Below, piece after piece: positions 95 to 27,714 of a DNA stretch of 64,000 nt. Position 1 is the first letter of the stretch. Every line of letters starts with the position of its first letter. Source of the DNA: Acidihalobacter yilgarnensis (GTDB taxonomy: Bacteria; Pseudomonadota; Gammaproteobacteria; DSM-5130; Acidihalobacteraceae); assembly GCF_001753245.1 (NCBI RefSeq), contig NZ_CP017415.1, positions 558,001 to 622,000 on the forward strand. The letters are read 5' to 3'. Below the pieces are notes generated by a model. The model was given only the letters and a program-made list of their open reading frames with translations, had not been told where the DNA came from and searched no databases. The position numbers were made by a program, and so were the translations under genes.

Positions 95-150
95 GCGGAG
101 TGCTTGCAAAGGTCGGTCATCTTCTATAGTTTGCCTGTCAGTCATACGAA

Positions 151-2180
<2,030 letters not shown>

Positions 2181-2980: not shown

Positions 2981-3087
2981 GATGCAACAATACGAGACCT
3001 CGCGCGCCATGCGCGGACTTGAAATGCAAGAGGGTATCTGACCCCGTTTCCACGTTTCCGGATGCTACAAAACGAGACCTGCCCCCG
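2981..3087. repeat. Short direct repeats ending in a GACCTGCCCCCG motif
   Basis: The 20-mer at 2981-3000 and the 20-mer at 3061-3080 match at 18 of 20 positions (GATGCWACAAWACGAGACCT). The second continues into GCCCCCG, so 3076-3087 is the exact inverted complement of 4407-4418. A related TATCTGACCCCG lies near 3033. Similar GGGGTCAGGTC sequences are, as I recall, often found beside IS200-like or REP-associated elements. No transposase is intact here. Confidence 0.55.
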
Positions 3088-3138
3088 TTTTCCTGGTCCC
3101 TGTTTAGCAATGTGCCATGCACCAAGAGCTTTAAACTC

Positions 3139-4395
3139 ATGACTGAAATATCGCGGGACAACCACGTAATTCGCGTTTCAGGTGATCTAAAGGATTTTCA
3201 TTACCTGTTGGCTCAATTTCATCAAGGCATAGAGAAAGCAGCATATTCTGAATTGATTCTGGATATGTCGGAGTGTACGTCAGCGTTTCAGAATTCAATG
3301 CTTTCCGTTTGCGCTCAAGTAACCGCATACAGGGAAGCTGGCATCGATATAGAATTAATACCACCCAAGAATCCGAGGCTATTAAGTTTATTTCGCAATA
3401 CAAACTGGGGTTACTTCCTAGATCCTCGAAAGTTTGATCAATCGCATTTTCGCGGACACTCACGAATCCCGGCCACCAGATATAAGACGCCTGATGAACA
3501 GCAAAACTCCGTCAACCGAATCGTAAATATTGTCCTTGGTGCTTTACCTGACTTACAAAGATCAAATTTAGCGGCATTTGAATGGTCTATTAATGAAATC
3601 ACTGACAATGTTTTATTACACTCTGAATCTCCAATAGGTGGGTTGGTGCAGGTTTCTACGTTTGAAAAAAATACCAAAAGCATTCAATTTGTTGTAGCCG
3701 ATGCGGGTGTTGGAATACCTCAAACACTTAAAGGTGGTCGACCTGACATTACATCAGACACGGATGCTCTCGATAAAGCCATTCGGGAAGGCGTCACCCG
3801 TGATGCGAAGATTGGCCAAGGGAATGGATTGTTCGGTACTTTCCGCGTATGTAGCAAATCTAATGGGTATTTTCAGGTTGACTCAGGACATGCTAGGTTG
3901 GAATTTAATTCTAAAAATGGCTTGTCAATATCAAATCAAAATATTCCATATTCTGGTACGTTAGTTGTCGCAACTATCGATTTTACTGATCCAGACTTGC
4001 TCGAAGACGCGCTCCAATTTGGCGGAAAACCGTACAAGCCGATTGATTACCTAGAGTTAGAATACGAGAAGTCGGATGGTATTCCTATCAATTTTATTCT
4101 CATAAATGAGTGTCAGGCATTTGGGAGTCGTGTTTCTGGTCGCCCACTTCGACAAAAGTTACACAACATATTGCGCATGTCTGGATCTCCCCAGATTGCG
4201 ATAGATTTTGATGGTGTCCCGGTGGTGTCGAGCAGTTTTGCCGATGAGGCTTTTGGAAAATTATTTCTACAGCTTGGGCCGGTGCAGTTTATGCAGAAAG
4301 TTAAGCTGATTAACATGGCGGATACGGTTGAAGGACTTATTAACAAAGCTATTGCTCAACGAATGCAGTATGGGGCATCAGATATTGACCCATAG
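3139..4395 (+). CDS. STAS-like / GHKL ATPase / DUF4325 protein, function unknown
   Basis: 418 residues from ATG 3139, and visibly more AT-rich than its surroundings. Three parts are seen. Residues 1-110 resemble a STAS-type fold (L-I-L-D-M-S pattern). A GHKL ATPase spans about 125-290, with N-box E153-x3-N157-x3-H161, G1 box DAGVGIP (188-194) and glycine loop GQGNGLFGTF (226-235). The C-terminal domain from about 325 has D-F-x-G-V-x-V-V-S-S-S-F-A-D-E-x-F-G-K-L-F, the signature I associate with the STAS-like DUF4325. The architecture recalls anti-sigma kinase/STAS switches, but no sigma factor or partner gene is adjacent. It sits alone between a toxin-antitoxin pair and a tandem duplication and is bracketed by inverted repeats, so recent transfer is likely. 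Confidence 0.75.
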   Translation: MTEISRDNHVIRVSGDLKDFHYLLAQFHQGIEKAAYSELILDMSECTSAFQNSMLSVCAQVTAYREAGIDIELIPPKNPRLLSLFRNTNWGYFLDPRKFDQSHFRGHSRIPATRYKTPDEQQNSVNRIVNIVLGALPDLQRSNLAAFEWSINEITDNVLLHSESPIGGLVQVSTFEKNTKSIQFVVADAGVGIPQTLKGGRPDITSDTDALDKAIREGVTRDAKIGQGNGLFGTFRVCSKSNGYFQVDSGHARLEFNSKNGLSISNQNIPYSGTLVVATIDFTDPDLLEDALQFGGKPYKPIDYLELEYEKSDGIPINFILINECQAFGSRVSGRPLRQKLHNILRMSGSPQIAIDFDGVPVVSSSFADEAFGKLFLQLGPVQFMQKVKLINMADTVEGLINKAIAQRMQYGASDIDP

Positions 4396-4406
4396 AGCAA
4401 GTGATT

Positions 4407-4418
4407 CGGGGGCAGGTC
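4407..4418. repeat. Right inverted repeat partner of 3076-3087
   Basis: CGGGGGCAGGTC here is the perfect reverse complement of the 12 bases at 3076-3087. The pair encloses the ATPase gene and its leader. The same motif (GGGGTCAGGTC) recurs at 5290-5300 at the edge of the second duplicated copy. Confidence 0.6.
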
Positions 4419-4540
4419 CAGAATTGTAACATTCGCTAACTCAGATATTAAACACGCCACATGGTTTCGGGCGCGAATCAAGTTCAACGTGATGGATTTT
4501 TCCAAGCGACGCGCCCGAAACGCCTTGTCTCTGCGGGTAG

Positions 4541-4626
4541 GCCTCGCCCGCACACGCCGTCCAGGTGAGGCCTGCTCGGGCGGCGTCCTTGCCGCCCGAC
4601 CCCGCGTCATCGTGTGCGGGCGAGGC
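4541..4626. repeat. Long inverted repeat with nested hairpin (copy 1)
   Basis: A perfect 15-bp inverted repeat (GCCTCGCCCGCACAC at 4541-4555, its complement at 4612-4626) encloses a second stem, CGGGCGGC / GCCGCCCG. It can fold as a large cruciform or RNA hairpin. The surrounding 4630-5050 has no convincing gene. It includes a short CTTTG..CAAAG hairpin around 4860-4880. Confidence 0.7.
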
Positions 4627-5055
4627 AAGGTGTAAACGGGATTAAAGATCAAAGGCGAAGCCGCGAAGTGTCGCGGTTGTGTGTTTTCTACCTTATCGCT
4701 TTGCCTCGCGGGGATGCGGCTGGACGGGGGCGGCCCCCGGAGGACTCGGGCCGAGCAGCCGGCGCCCGGACGGCGCTTGGCTGCGACCCCGGCCATACGT
4801 ATTCACGCGAGGTTGCCTGTAGGGCCAAGGTGATCTGGGACGAATTTCTTGGGTGATTTTCTTTGTTCGTCCAAAGAAAGTCACTCGCACGCCCGCACTT
4901 AAACCCAATAAAGAACATCGCTGTTCAAGGCGTGTGAAACAAGCCTGCCATTCCGTATCGATTCTTCAGTAATCGGGATTAATCGCGAAACGTAAAACAG
5001 TAATTCAGTTGACTGCGTGAATCTCTTTGGTCAGAGATACTTCAGAGCGCCACGC

Positions 5056-5190
5056 TCACTCCTCGTCAGACTGATCCCGCCTATCCGCATTATCGGGCTG
5101 AGCAAGCAATCTGGGCACGACGTATAGAAGAACAACCGCCCCGGCAACGACAATGCCAAGCAGTATCAGAAAGCCGATGCCGTCGTTCAT
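5056..5190 (-). CDS. Small single-pass membrane protein (copy 1)
   Basis: 44 residues from the ATG at 5188-5190, which has a strong GGAGG site four bases upstream. The longer in-frame start at 5250 lacks one. Residues 5-28 form one hydrophobic helix (GFLILLGIVVAGAVVLLYVV), followed by an acidic, polar tail ending D-Q-S-D-E-E. An identical gene lies 880 bases away. I do not recognise a family. Confidence 0.55.
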   Translation of the reverse strand: MNDGIGFLILLGIVVAGAVVLLYVVPRLLAQPDNADRRDQSDEE

Positions 5191-5295
5191 CTGTCCTCCC
5201 GAGGCCCGCCGGCGGCATAGATAGACACCATCGGCGGGCAAGCAAAGCATCGCAGCATTAGATGCTCGTCTGCAGCAGATCGAAAATCTGGGGTC

Positions 5296-6160
5296 AGGTC
5301 CAGAAATGTAACATTCGCTAACTCAGATATTAAACACGCCACATGGTTTCTGGCGCGAATCAAGTTCAACGTGATTGATTTTTCCAAGCGACGCGCCCGA
5401 AACGCCTTGTCTCTGCGGGTAAGCCTCGCCCGCACACGCCGTCCAGGCGAGGTCTGCTCGGGCGGCCCTTGCCGCCCGACCCCGCGTCATCGTGTGCGGG
5501 CGAGGCAAGGTGTAAACGGGATTAAAGATCAAAGGCGAAGCCGCGAAGTGTCGCGGTTGTGTGTTTTCTACCTTATCGCTTTGCCTCGCGGGGATGCGGC
5601 TGGACGGGGGCGGCCCCCGGAGGACTCGGGCCGAGCAGCCGGCGCCCGGACGGCGCTTGGCTGCGACCCCGGCCATACGTATTCACGCGAGGTTGCCTGT
5701 AGGGCCAAGGTGATCTGGGACGAATTTCTTGGGTGATTTTCTTTGTTCGTCCAAAGAAAGTCACTCGCACGCCCGCACTTAAACCCAATAAAGAACATCG
5801 CTGTTCAAGGCGTGTGAAACAAGCCTGCCATTCCGTATCGATTCTTCAGTAATCGGGATTAATCGCGAAACGTAAAACAGTAATTCAGTTGACTGCGTGA
5901 ATCTCTTTGGTCAGAGATACTTCAGAGCGCCACGCTCACTCCTCGTCAGACTGATCCCGCCTATCCGCATTATCGGGCTGAGCAAGCAATCTGGGCACGA
6001 CGTATAGAAGAACAACCGCCCCGGCAACGACAATGCCAAGCAGTATCAGAAAGCCGATGCCGTCGTTCATCTGTCCTCCCGAGGCCCGCCGGCGGCATAG
6101 ATAGACACCATCGGCGGGCAAGCAAAGCATCGCAGCATTAGATGCTCGTCTGCAGCAGAT
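5296..6160. repeat. 0.87-kb tandem duplication, copy 2
   Basis: Second copy of 4414-5280, separated from it by 15 bases (5281-5295) ending in GGGGTC. It abuts and includes the 3' end of the gene at 6138-6806. The inverted repeat seen in copy 1 recurs at 5423-5437 and 5492-5506. Confidence 0.93.
5936..6070 (-). CDS. Small single-pass membrane protein (copy 2)
   Basis: Same 44-residue product as at 5056-5190, with the same GGAGG ribosome site and the ATG at 6068-6070. It lies 67 bases downstream of the Ser/Thr-rich protein gene on the same strand, so the two were probably co-transcribed before the duplication. Confidence 0.55.
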   Translation of the reverse strand: MNDGIGFLILLGIVVAGAVVLLYVVPRLLAQPDNADRRDQSDEE

Positions 6161-6806
6161 TGCCTACGGCGGATGTGTTGCTGCCGGGCAGTCCGTTCGA
6201 AAAGGCTTGCAGAAAACCAGTCAGACTCGTGCTACTGGAATTGCTTCCCATCGCAGTGACCAGGCTTTGGAAGCTTTGTTGAAGGTTGGCCAGGCTGCTC
6301 GTCGATTGGCTGCTTGTGGTGCCTGATGTTGCCGAACTCGACGATGTGCCTGAAAGCTGCTGGATCAGGTTCTGCAATGCGGCCTGGAGATGATGTCCTC
6401 CATGATGATGCATGCCTTGCATACCGGGGTTGCCGGTCGTCTGAGCATTGGGGTCGGTGGTGCCATTCGTGCCACTCTGACCTTGCAGCGCCGCCATGAG
6501 GCTCTGGATGAAGCTGGCCAACGCCATTTGTGTCGCGGACTGGGAAGTCGCTCCGGATGTGCTTGCTGAATTATTGGTGGTCAGGGTGCTGCTAACGGCG
6601 GTGTTGGTCGATCCGCTAGTTTGGCCAACGCCGATCTGGGAAAGGGCTTGCAGAACCGAATTAACCAAACCACCGCCTTGCGAAGACTGGTTTTGCCCGC
6701 CGATTGTCAGGCCGGCTGGTGTTTGATTTGTATTCGATGCGGTGGTGTTGCGTAAATTGAGTTGTGCAAACAGGTTGTTTGAACCCGGTATGCTGGAAAT
6801 CGTCAT
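6138..6806 (-). CDS. Low-complexity Ser/Thr/Gln/Asn-rich protein
   Basis: 222 residues, ATG at 6806 with AGAGG about nine bases upstream. More than half of the residues are S, T, N, Q, G or A. Three short amphipathic stretches (LVNSVLQALSQIG, ASFIQSLMAALQGQ, LQAALQNLIQQLSG) break up the polar linkers, and a His-rich patch (GMHHHGGHH) sits near residue 133. There is no signal peptide or membrane segment. The repeated helix-linker layout suggests a secreted or surface protein without a cleavable signal, but that is inference and I know no named family. Its last seven codons are duplicated at 5262-5280. Confidence 0.6.
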   Translation of the reverse strand: MTISSIPGSNNLFAQLNLRNTTASNTNQTPAGLTIGGQNQSSQGGGLVNSVLQALSQIGVGQTSGSTNTAVSSTLTTNNSASTSGATSQSATQMALASFIQSLMAALQGQSGTNGTTDPNAQTTGNPGMQGMHHHGGHHLQAALQNLIQQLSGTSSSSATSGTTSSQSTSSLANLQQSFQSLVTAMGSNSSSTSLTGFLQAFSNGLPGSNTSAVGNLLQTSI

Positions 6807-7149
6807 GTGTTTGTGCCTCTGATGATGGGCTTCGGCTTGCAGACGCTGCGCGGCTGATGGAGCAATGTGCGTGCCAGAGGCCAGTCATTGGCCATATACG
6901 TTCAACTGGACCTATGCGTACTCTTGGAAATGCCGACCAAGTTGGCGATATGCCTACGAATGGCTGCGGACCTGGCTACCCCATAGGGCGGAGACACGGA
7001 TATCCGTGCTTTCTGTATTACAGTCAGGACCTTCGGTTGGCAGGATGTTGCCAGTGGTTGGCAAGCGAGTGCCTCCGGTCATGTCCGCGTTTGCCGCTTT
7101 GCCGTAGGCGGATGCAGCATAAGGTGAATCTGTCGGGCGACAAACTCAG
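6807..7149. other. Intergenic stretch with an 18-nt TGG period
   Basis: There is no convincing intact gene. TGG codons recur at exactly 18-base spacing at 6889, 6907, 6925, 6943 and 6961. In the frame opening with ATG 6865 this gives Trp every sixth residue with Tyr-rich fill. No good ribosome site is seen. Confidence 0.4.
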
Positions 7150-7336
7150 TGGTCCCCGTGCTCAGCGCCGCCGTGTGCCGGCGCCAGTTTCGCGCAAAAT
7201 TGCAGCGAACCATCACGACTGGAACGCGCCCATCGTCGCGGCCTACCAGACGGGGGCCTACCGCTATCGAAAAATTGGCGAGTACATCGGGCTGCACTTG
7301 GCGACGGGCGGGTACGTCGTTCGCGCGCGATCGTGA
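7150..7336 (+). pseudogene. C-terminal HTH remnant, transposase-like
   Basis: The frame ending at 7336 reads R-A-Q-R-R-R-V-P-A-P-V, then H-D-W-N-A-P-I-V-A-A-Y-Q-T-G-A-Y and K-I-G-E-Y-I-G-L-H-L-A-T-x-G-Y-V-V-R-A. This matches the pattern of the C-terminal helix-turn-helix (x-I-x-x-x-F-G-L-H-x-x-T-V-x-R-x-V) of REP-associated IS200-like transposases and relatives. The catalytic HUH domain is absent, so only a 3' remnant remains. The family assignment is from memory of the pattern. Confidence 0.4.
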
Positions 7337-7397: not shown

Positions 7398-7427
7398 GCA
7401 TCAATGTCTGCCGCATCAATGTCTGCC
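7398..7427. repeat. 15-bp tandem repeat
   Basis: GCATCAATGTCTGCC occurs twice head to tail (7398-7412, 7413-7427), followed by a degenerate GCAGCAATG. Confidence 0.7.
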
Positions 7428-7522
7428 GCAGCAATGGCTGGCTGATTGACGGTTAATTACACGGTGTGCGGCCAGGACTCGCTGCATGCGACAAGGGCAG
7501 GATCTAACCGGGGGGTGAGATT

Positions 7523-25881: not shown

Positions 25882-27015
25882 ATGAAGAAAACCCTTATCG
25901 CTGCCGCGGTGGGCGCGGTGATTGCGGTCCCCGTCGTTGCACAGGCGGATGTGACCCTGTACGGCAAATTCGAGCCATCGCTCGACTACCTCAACACCAA
26001 CACCACCGGTGGCGTGACCAACGGCAGCTCGACCAGCAAGAGCATCTCTGGGTTCTCCCTGAACAGCTCGCGTTGGGGCGTCAAGGGTTCCGAGGATCTG
26101 GGTGACGGCCTGCGCGCGCTGTTCCAGGTCGAGAGCACGATTTCCACCGACGGCAAGGCCGCACTGGGCAACCGCAACACCTTCGCGGGCATCGCCGGCG
26201 GCTTCGGCACGGTGATTGCCGGTCGTCACGACACTCCGATGAAGAGCTTGGGCCGTGCGGTCGACCTGTTCGGCGATCAGATTGGCGACAGCCGTAATCT
26301 GATCAGCGGCAAGTACAACGGCAGCGTGGGTTTCGATTTGCGCGTACCGGATGTGGTCGCCTATGTCACCCCGCAGATAGGCGGTTTCAAGGGTGTGGCG
26401 GCCTATGTGTTTGATGGCGGCGTCAGTAACGCAGGGACGTACAGTCTGCTGGGCGAATACAAGATGGGTCCGGTGATGGTGGGCTTGGCCTACGAGAGTC
26501 ACGGCAAGGGCCTGTACAACGGTGGAAGCGGAACCACTGCCTCGCCCTATACCTACGGCACGAATGCCGAGACCGGCGTGCGTTTGGCGGGTAGCTACAA
26601 GATCGGCGCCTTCAAGCTGGTGGGCCTGGTCGAGCAGCTGACCAATCTGGGCGGTTACCAGTACATCGGTAACAGCTCCGCGAACCCGAAGGCCAAGGCC
26701 ACCGTGTATGGCTTCGGTGGCATGTACACCATGGGCTCGAACGCGATCAAGGCGCAGGTGTACCAGGCCAACCCGGATGGCAGCAACAACAACTCCACGA
26801 TGTTCGCGATCGGCTTTGATCACACCTTCAGCAAGCGTGTGATGGCCTTTGTCGACTACGCGCACATGACCAACCAGAGTGGCGCGATGATGAACGTATG
26901 GGGCGGCGGTCACAGCGCCACCTACGTCAATGCCAACAACAGCCCCGCGACCGTTACGGTGGGTGCTGGCAAGAACCCCTATGCCATCTCCACCGGCATG
27001 ATGATCAAGTTCTAA
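25882..27015 (+). CDS. Gram-negative general porin
   Basis: 377 residues. The signal peptide M-K-K-T-L-I-A-A-A-V-G-A-V-I-A-V-P-V-V-A-Q-A is cleaved before D-V-T-L-Y-G-K-F. S-R-W-G-V-K-G-S-E-D-L-G-D-G-L-R-A-L-F-Q-V-E and G-F-G-T-V-I-A-G-R-H-D-T-P are landmarks of trimeric diffusion porins (Porin_4/OmpC-like). It ends in a terminal Phe (M-M-I-K-F). AAGGAG lies nine bases before the ATG and a strong terminator follows. It should form a passive channel for small solutes in the outer membrane. Confidence 0.93.
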   Translation: MKKTLIAAAVGAVIAVPVVAQADVTLYGKFEPSLDYLNTNTTGGVTNGSSTSKSISGFSLNSSRWGVKGSEDLGDGLRALFQVESTISTDGKAALGNRNTFAGIAGGFGTVIAGRHDTPMKSLGRAVDLFGDQIGDSRNLISGKYNGSVGFDLRVPDVVAYVTPQIGGFKGVAAYVFDGGVSNAGTYSLLGEYKMGPVMVGLAYESHGKGLYNGGSGTTASPYTYGTNAETGVRLAGSYKIGAFKLVGLVEQLTNLGGYQYIGNSSANPKAKATVYGFGGMYTMGSNAIKAQVYQANPDGSNNNSTMFAIGFDHTFSKRVMAFVDYAHMTNQSGAMMNVWGGGHSATYVNANNSPATVTVGAGKNPYAISTGMMIKF

Positions 27016-27258: not shown

Positions 27259-27714
27259 ATGACCATCAGATGGACAGAGGATTTGAATACCGGTATCGAG
27301 GTGATCGACAGGCAACACATGAGAATTGCCGATTACATTAACGAATTGGAGCATATCCATCAAAAAAATGACCGCGTCGTGACCGGTCGGGTACTGGACG
27401 AGTTGATGGATTACACGCTTTCGCACTTCGCATTCGAAGAGAGTCTGCAGGAAGAAGCCGGCTACGAATACCTGCGACCGCATCAGAAGGTACATGAGCT
27501 GTTTACGCGTCGGATCAATCAATATTTGAATCGCTATCGGTTGGGGGACGACGTGGCGGGTGAAATTCACGGACTGTTGCGTACTTGGTTGGTCAGTCAT
27601 ATCAAGCACGACGATGCGGATTACGTGGCTGCGGTTCGGGACAATATGCTCGCCATTCTTGCCGAGAAACAGCGTAGCAAGCACGAAGGTTGGTTGAGCC
27701 GATTTTTCCGCTAG
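27259..27714 (+). CDS. Bacteriohemerythrin
   Basis: 151 residues from ATG 27259, with AGGAG eight bases upstream. All seven diiron ligands are visible: H20 (I-D-R-Q-H), H56 and E60 (H-F-A-F-E), H75 and H79 (H-Q-K-V-H), H114 and D119 (H-I-K-H-D-D). It is a soluble oxygen-binding protein that may store or sense oxygen. It is not fused to a signalling domain here. Confidence 0.95.
   Translation: MTIRWTEDLNTGIEVIDRQHMRIADYINELEHIHQKNDRVVTGRVLDELMDYTLSHFAFEESLQEEAGYEYLRPHQKVHELFTRRINQYLNRYRLGDDVAGEIHGLLRTWLVSHIKHDDADYVAAVRDNMLAILAEKQRSKHEGWLSRFFR

Follow-up and report, generated by a model that had tools for sequence, protein, structure and literature searches.

Why does a 0.87-kb stretch of DNA stand twice, in tandem, at this locus of Acidihalobacter yilgarnensis, and what set the motif-marked edge at which both copies begin? 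The locus lies in the window, by which we mean the whole 64-kb stretch analysed here (G000:C1:558001-622000, G000 being the single-contig, 3.57-Mb genome); unprefixed positions are those of the window.

Architecture of the duplication

When the window is aligned with itself, the two copies form an 873-column alignment at 98.97% identity, with a shift of 882 (Table 1); it is the sole tandem duplication of at least 100 bp in the window (at least 80% identity, gap of at most 100). The alignment confirms the original prediction, tandem copies whose left edge is sharp and marked by a motif, with one correction: its copies had been started at 4414 and 5296, and the homology begins at GGGG, six bases earlier. 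Between the copies lies a non-duplicated spacer of 9 nt. Seven substitutions and one 2-nt indel separate copy 1 from copy 2, all eight events falling within the first ~181 of the 873 columns—the leftward clustering that had been pointed out at the outset (p about 3.4e-6 under uniform placement)—and the right ~690 bp are identical. As also foreseen, copy 1 ends in a copy of 6138–6160, the stop and last 6–7 codons of a 222-aa gene, whose low-complexity product is without a Pfam match and has none among viral contigs.

That the assembly is in error, and the locus really single-copy, is very improbable. The ~690 identical base pairs would suit an artefact, and our case is made from the assembled sequence; against this, the substitutions, the indel and the unique spacer distinguish the copies and the genome is one 3.57-Mb contig. 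The base differences and the spacer therefore disfavour an artefact.

Table 1. Features of the duplicated unit and its surroundings, in window positions (TIR, terminal inverted repeat, as assigned from sequence; TIRYT, its putative transposase)
Feature	Position	Strand	Remark
TIR left of ATPase/STAS-like ORF	3062..3086 (G000:C1:561062-561086)	-	1 mismatch to TIR pattern
Copy 1 of duplicated unit	4408..5280	+	self-alignment
TIR of copy 1, G-variant tip GGGGGCAG	4408..4432 (G000:C1:562408-562432)	+	1 mismatch to TIR pattern
GC-rich body of TIR-led element, copy 1	4509..4952	+	approximate, projected from copy 2
44-aa small membrane protein gene, copy 1	5056..5190	-	
3' end of 222-aa gene, truncated copy	5258..5280	-	
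9-nt non-duplicated spacer at junction (new joint)	5281..5289	+	self-alignment
Copy 2 of duplicated unit	5290..6160	+	self-alignment
TIR of copy 2, tip GGGGTCAG	5290..5314 (G000:C1:563290-563314)	+	0 mismatches
GC-rich body of TIR-led element, copy 2	5391..5834	+	
44-aa small membrane protein gene, copy 2	5936..6070	-	orthologous single gene in G001 and G002
222-aa low-complexity protein gene, intact	6138..6806	-	right edge of the duplication in its last codons
TIRYT C-terminal remnant	7106..7327	+	48.6% identity to aa 208-280, E 2.7e-14

The edge motif and its transposase

Both copies open with GGGG(G/T)CAGGTCCAGAA(T/A)TGTAACAT. By its sequence this motif is the terminal inverted repeat (TIR) known from TIRtrons, elements whose transposase (TIRYT) is of the Y1-HuH type. 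Some TIRtron TIRs share a GGGGWSAS core (PMC3733652, PMC6006769); the tip of copy 2 fits this core and that of copy 1 is a one-base variant. The pattern GGGGNCAGGTCNNG has 16 matches in the genome (control 1), and the 25-nt TIR pattern, allowing up to 3 mismatches, has 25 (control 1). An intact 287-aa TIRYT gene lies at G000:C1:26632-27492 between two TIRs, one at 26592 (0 mismatches, 40 bp before the gene) and the other, inverted, at 27475-27499 (2 mismatches, at the gene end); its product matches Y1_Tnp in Pfam (E 6e-11), has C-terminal helix-turn-helix matches below cut-off and, by reading of the sequence, carries the HuH motif NHYH. The common GGGGWSAS core, the Y1-HuH gene with a weak C-terminal helix-turn-helix and the dispersed TIRs give the system the likeness of TIRtron/TIRYT (RAYT subclass 2.1), a likeness drawn from these features. 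The link that had been proposed between the edge motif and the inverted repeats around the neighbouring ATPase ORF also holds, the minus-strand TIR to the left of that ORF and the plus-strand TIR of copy 1 both matching the pattern.

The 0.87-kb unit carries one TIR, at its left edge, with no TIR match at the right edge; with no second, inverted TIR it is not a complete TIRtron. A MITE (two-ended non-autonomous element) was likewise rejected, the unit being single-ended. Two-ended TIR elements of 50–360 bp exist at other loci. The TIR pattern occurs in none of the viral contigs, and a literature search for GGGGTCAG and longer strings returned papers unrelated by title.

Some smaller features of these repeats may be recorded here. 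REPINs are inverted pairs of REP palindromes with GTAG as their head. The TIRs of the two copies read TGTAACAT, but of 133 TIRs 82% read TGTAGCAT, containing GTAG; a facing pair of these could form a GTAG-headed palindrome, and a TIR–REP link is possible. The ATPase/STAS-like ORF (DUF4325) stands between two TIRs (3062–4432), both of the GGGGGCAG variant and both with their GGGG tips facing it; to its left, two TIR-like tips 41 nt apart form a small cluster (3038–3086, minus strand). Near the TIRYT remnant, at 7398–7442, is a 15-bp tandem repeat, GCATCAATGTCTGCC, in two perfect copies and one 80% copy.

Composition of the unit

We find the unit to be composite, a TIR-led dispersed element of ~545 bp followed by ~326 bp of host DNA that holds the 44-aa membrane-protein gene—an ORF in both copies, as predicted—and the end of the 222-aa gene. 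The first ~545 bp consist of the TIR and then a GC-rich body, pieces of which recur elsewhere in the genome (76–87% identity for the longer matches) and are present in both congeners, G001 and G002. Five of six dispersed loci in the own genome (453, 837, 2688, 3096 and 3303 kb) have a correctly oriented TIR with up to 3 mismatches 111–305 bp upstream of the best-matching piece; the locus at 3444 kb has no such upstream TIR. The suggestion of a doubled, structured GC-rich region therefore stands for the region, now recognised as the body of a dispersed element, and falls for the structure: as a structured RNA, an alignment of 15 sequences with 37 pairs gained almost no covariation support (term -0.46), and Rfam at gathering thresholds matched nothing in the body, its one match in the window being a TPP riboswitch at another site. 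The riboswitch (144–238, plus strand; 66 bits) lies directly 5' of an ORF at 291–2180 that reads like thiC.

The single-copy state in two congeners

Comparison with relatives, proposed as a check on copy number, gives a clear result: the host part of the unit has one match each in G001 and G002 in whole-genome searches, and the neighbourhood, in which the 44-aa ORF is conserved, is single-copy in both. Both congeners have a TIR at the equivalent place. That of G002 departs from the pattern at 2 positions, in a genome with 4 pattern matches (control 0); that of G001 departs at 3, and since the pattern count there is below its control (2 matches, control 5), it is accepted on its alignment with the G002 TIR. 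The two congener TIRs have at least 25 nt of flank in common. Just a 36-nt piece of the 222-aa gene was detected in G002, which has a further GC-rich copy ~1 kb outside the TIR. The ATPase/STAS-like ORF (DUF4325, Pfam) has no match in the 8–12 kb neighbourhood of either congener, where a nitrilase-like ORF (reading of the translation) is found without it.

These comparisons bear on which edges are old. Copy 2 had been called ancestral from the truncation of the gene in copy 1, an argument that is unsupported as stated: any tandem duplication ending inside a gene truncates the upstream copy, so that truncation is uninformative on ancestry. On the right, the old edge is that of copy 2, and the new joint is therefore in the middle. 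On the left, modest evidence suggests that the outer edge, that of copy 1, is the old one: of the 8 nt flanking copy 1, 6 agree with the congener flank and 2 with the spacer before copy 2 (ungapped count). The evidence is modest because allowing a single gap brings out a likeness of the congeners' ATCGTTATTC to the bases before copy 2 (ATCGAAAATCT) as well.

Tandem duplications at outer TIR tips

That tandem duplication is associated with the outer tip of the TIR we hold with high confidence. Among tandem duplications of at least 100 bp, seven of eight have both copies anchored at a tip, against 0.24 expected by random placement, and they come from four genera. The eight unique duplications were drawn from the window, the TIR regions of the own genome and 30 TIRYT loci from genomes of the class (one of them the own genome's locus), TIRYT relatives (E <= 1e-40) being present in 37 of 151 class genomes; the seven are L213 (twice), L216, L221, L143, L144 and the present unit. 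At L143 (own genome, 25.9–26.6 kb) the intact TIRYT gene is preceded by two copies of part of its 5' end, each starting from a TIR, first one of 117 bp (88.9%, shift 118) and then one of 145 bp (90.3%, shift 541; 396 bp of other sequence intervene). L144 (own genome, 1638.8–1639.3 kb) holds three copies running from a TIR to the 5' part of what reads as an oxidoreductase-like gene, the last copy alone continuing into the intact gene. In three other genera, L213, L216 and L221 carry 5'-partial TIRYT tandem copies of 267–309, 200 and 166 bp, 91.9–98.8% identical, whose units begin 0–12 nt outside the tip. A 423-bp perfect tandem duplication at L145 2385–3230 (G000:C1 ~460.9–461.7 kb) was set aside as not tip-anchored; it starts 30 nt inside a TIR and lies, by reading of the ORFs, in an IS3-like orfA.

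At a threshold of 40 bp, the tip-anchored share is 9 of 15 in the TIRYT loci and 4 of 5 in the own-genome regions (one place counted in both), compared with 3 of 11 in 89 motif loci, pattern matches from a collection of 84,980 genomes, and 0 of 3 in a 400-kb control from the own genome. Near-full-length TIRYT relatives (52–73% identity) occur in 11 of the 89 loci, where none of the pairs of at least 60 bp flagged as tandem (L075, L080, L101) is tip-anchored. A pattern for what we take to be a second TIR subtype matched 4 of 114 genomes; among its four loci, L185 has a 78-bp tandem pair.

Shorter tandem duplications (12–60 bp, perfect or one base short) number 38 in the 632,520 bases of the 89 loci, and 19 of them contain a TIR start. 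Fifteen of these 19 units begin 5–8 nt outside GGGG, the other four, one a three-copy array, 13–29 nt outside; the right edge lies at +7 in nine and at +6 in three. Six of the remaining 19, by our reading of the listing, also have a GGGGTC(A) unit, at ends that the pattern missed. In a fixed test, such duplications were found at 21 of 239 outer tips (89 loci and own-genus regions), at 1 of 212 inner edges and at 100 of 178,000 random positions in the 89 loci. Taken together, tip units mostly include 5–13 nt outside GGGG, with a right edge from +6 to several hundred nt.

Ordinary illegitimate duplication or replication slippage, the edge falling at a TIR by chance or through palindrome-stalled replication, could be thought to account for this pattern, since tandem duplications without TIRs are found at two places in the 400-kb control (L195, L203) and facing TIR pairs are, by inspection, self-complementary and could fold. 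We consider it improbable in view of the excess of long duplications at tips and the disparity between outer and inner edges. Single TIRs, furthermore, carry short duplications more often than facing pairs do (16 of 122 vs 5 of 117, p 0.021), which disfavours slippage at a hairpin in particular. Junction microhomology was dropped as a discriminator, tip duplications and other short duplications showing no difference (p 0.91).

A proposed copy-and-rejoin model

The recurrence of doubling at TIR ends in other bacteria suggests that the enzyme itself makes the duplication, and we give about an even chance (roughly 0.5) to a reading in which TIRYT does so in a single step, cutting outside the tip, copying and rejoining. 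What has been observed in its favour is the identity of the TIR, a genome that carries TIRYT, anchoring at tips across several genera, and congeners with a single copy. The resident single-ended element, a TIR with its GC-rich body at the same place in the genus, would supply the fixed left edge; TIRYT, a Y1-HuH single-strand nuclease that we infer to be the cutter, would make its cut a few bases beyond GGGG, on the outer side of the tip; and copying from the free 3' end would proceed through the tip into the adjoining DNA before that end was joined back to the cut one. In the present case the copying would have continued beyond the element into host sequence and ended, at no particular site, within the next gene. 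Such a series of nick, extension and re-ligation would produce units whose left edge stays near the tip and whose right edge varies. The order of these steps is our reconstruction, as is a later recombination between the copies that would have homogenised their right ~690 bp. Known TnpAREP enzymes work through a 5'-phosphotyrosine link that leaves a 3'-OH, and they also rejoin strands (PMC8266576).

The fit of the present unit to copy-and-rejoin is imperfect: it obeys the edge rule and breaks the flank rule. The model predicts matching flanks, and those of copy 1 (AGTGATTC) and copy 2 (GAAAATCT) agree at 2 of 8 positions. Flanks also mismatch for copy 1 of the L144 array (3/8), the third TIR of L143 (2–3/8) and copies 2 and 3 of L213; they match in L216, L221 and copies 1 and 2 of L143. 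Further points against the model are the equal junction microhomology of tip and other short duplications, the tip-anchored share of 3 of 11 (and none of the flagged pairs) in the 89 motif loci, and the 423-bp duplication at L145, whose start is not at a tip.

It is because the spacer differs from the copy-1 flank that a two-step origin has to be taken seriously, although on balance we think it unlikely. A second TIR element, bringing ~8 nt of foreign flank, would have landed within the final codons of the 222-aa gene. Unequal homologous exchange between it and the resident TIR element would then have doubled the intervening DNA; the transposase would supply the repeat and host recombination the duplication. 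This account suits the mismatched flanks and the crowding of differences at the left end as well, or better: it explains the foreign 9-nt spacer, and the eight differences in the first ~181 columns fit a hybrid copy 2 whose left end came from the newcomer. A flank of ~8 nt does seem to travel with the TIR: in homologous-body pairs the first 8 nt agree at 4.04 positions on average and the 8 nt beyond them at 2.30 (46 of 53 pairs, the 7 whose flanks are shared over a greater length being left out; the pairs are non-independent and include tandem copies), whereas random TIR pairs give 2.37 and 2.05. Against it, two events are needed, and the donor copy was not found: among the 16 GGGGNCAGGTCNNG-pattern TIRs only copy 2 has the flank GAAAATCT and, copy 1 apart, the first ~185 nt have no own-genome match above 88%. 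By itself, moreover, it leaves the 12–20 bp tip duplications unexplained.

Copy-and-rejoin can be extended, more tentatively, to a reading of TIRYT as a dedicated one-ended tandem amplifier, and of REP/TIR-type transposases as local gene duplicators. The enzyme would nick a few nucleotides outside GGGG, the 3' end would be extended through the tip and the covalently held 5' end rejoined; extension would often stop at GGGGTCA and sometimes hundreds of bases into a neighbouring gene.

Relation to known systems

What is new here is that outer TIR tips seed tandem duplications. Neither searches of an open-access library nor the available parts of PMC3733652, PMC6006769, PMC8266576, PMC3116915 and PMC2817692 gave a description of TIRYTs producing duplications anchored at the outer tip. 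Known TIRtron TIRs are single, dimeric or grouped, and a tip-edged tandem duplication including host genes is not described in the parts available of PMC3733652 and PMC6006769. The REPIN tandem clusters of Pseudomonas fluorescens SBW25 are likewise tandem copies of a repeat with its flanks, usually with a short non-repeated stretch between (PMC3116915). The present units differ from those clusters in having a TIR as the repeat and a left edge that hardly moves, while their right edge lies anywhere from +6 nt to +871 nt.

IS91/ISCR rolling-circle elements, which have their own rolling-circle transposase and defined oriIS/terIS, undergo one-ended transposition, in which one end is defined and the other varies, taking flanking DNA along. 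From these general features, their working is similar to that proposed here; the differences are that the Y1 enzyme is of the IS200/REP kind and that the copies are in tandem, not moved elsewhere.

The fixed-edge signature beside the tip would be a sequence footprint of enzyme action, countable in public genomes and testable with purified protein. It bears on how TnpAREP enzymes spread repeats and, if the reading is true, gives a transposase a route to double host genes; REP/TIR-type Y1 transposases (TnpAREP) are found in roughly one bacterial species in four (PMC6006769, PMC8266576).

Two further loci add to the picture of the repeat itself. At L136 4340 the 8 nt outside the tip (AAAACCTG) are repeated, inverted, outside the facing tip, the palindrome thus reaching 8 bp past the TIRs. 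In Kineobactrum sediminis (L054 and others; G276) the 25-nt TIR pattern, with up to 2 mismatches allowed, has 115 matches (control 0); among the matches listed, many form closely spaced inverted pairs.
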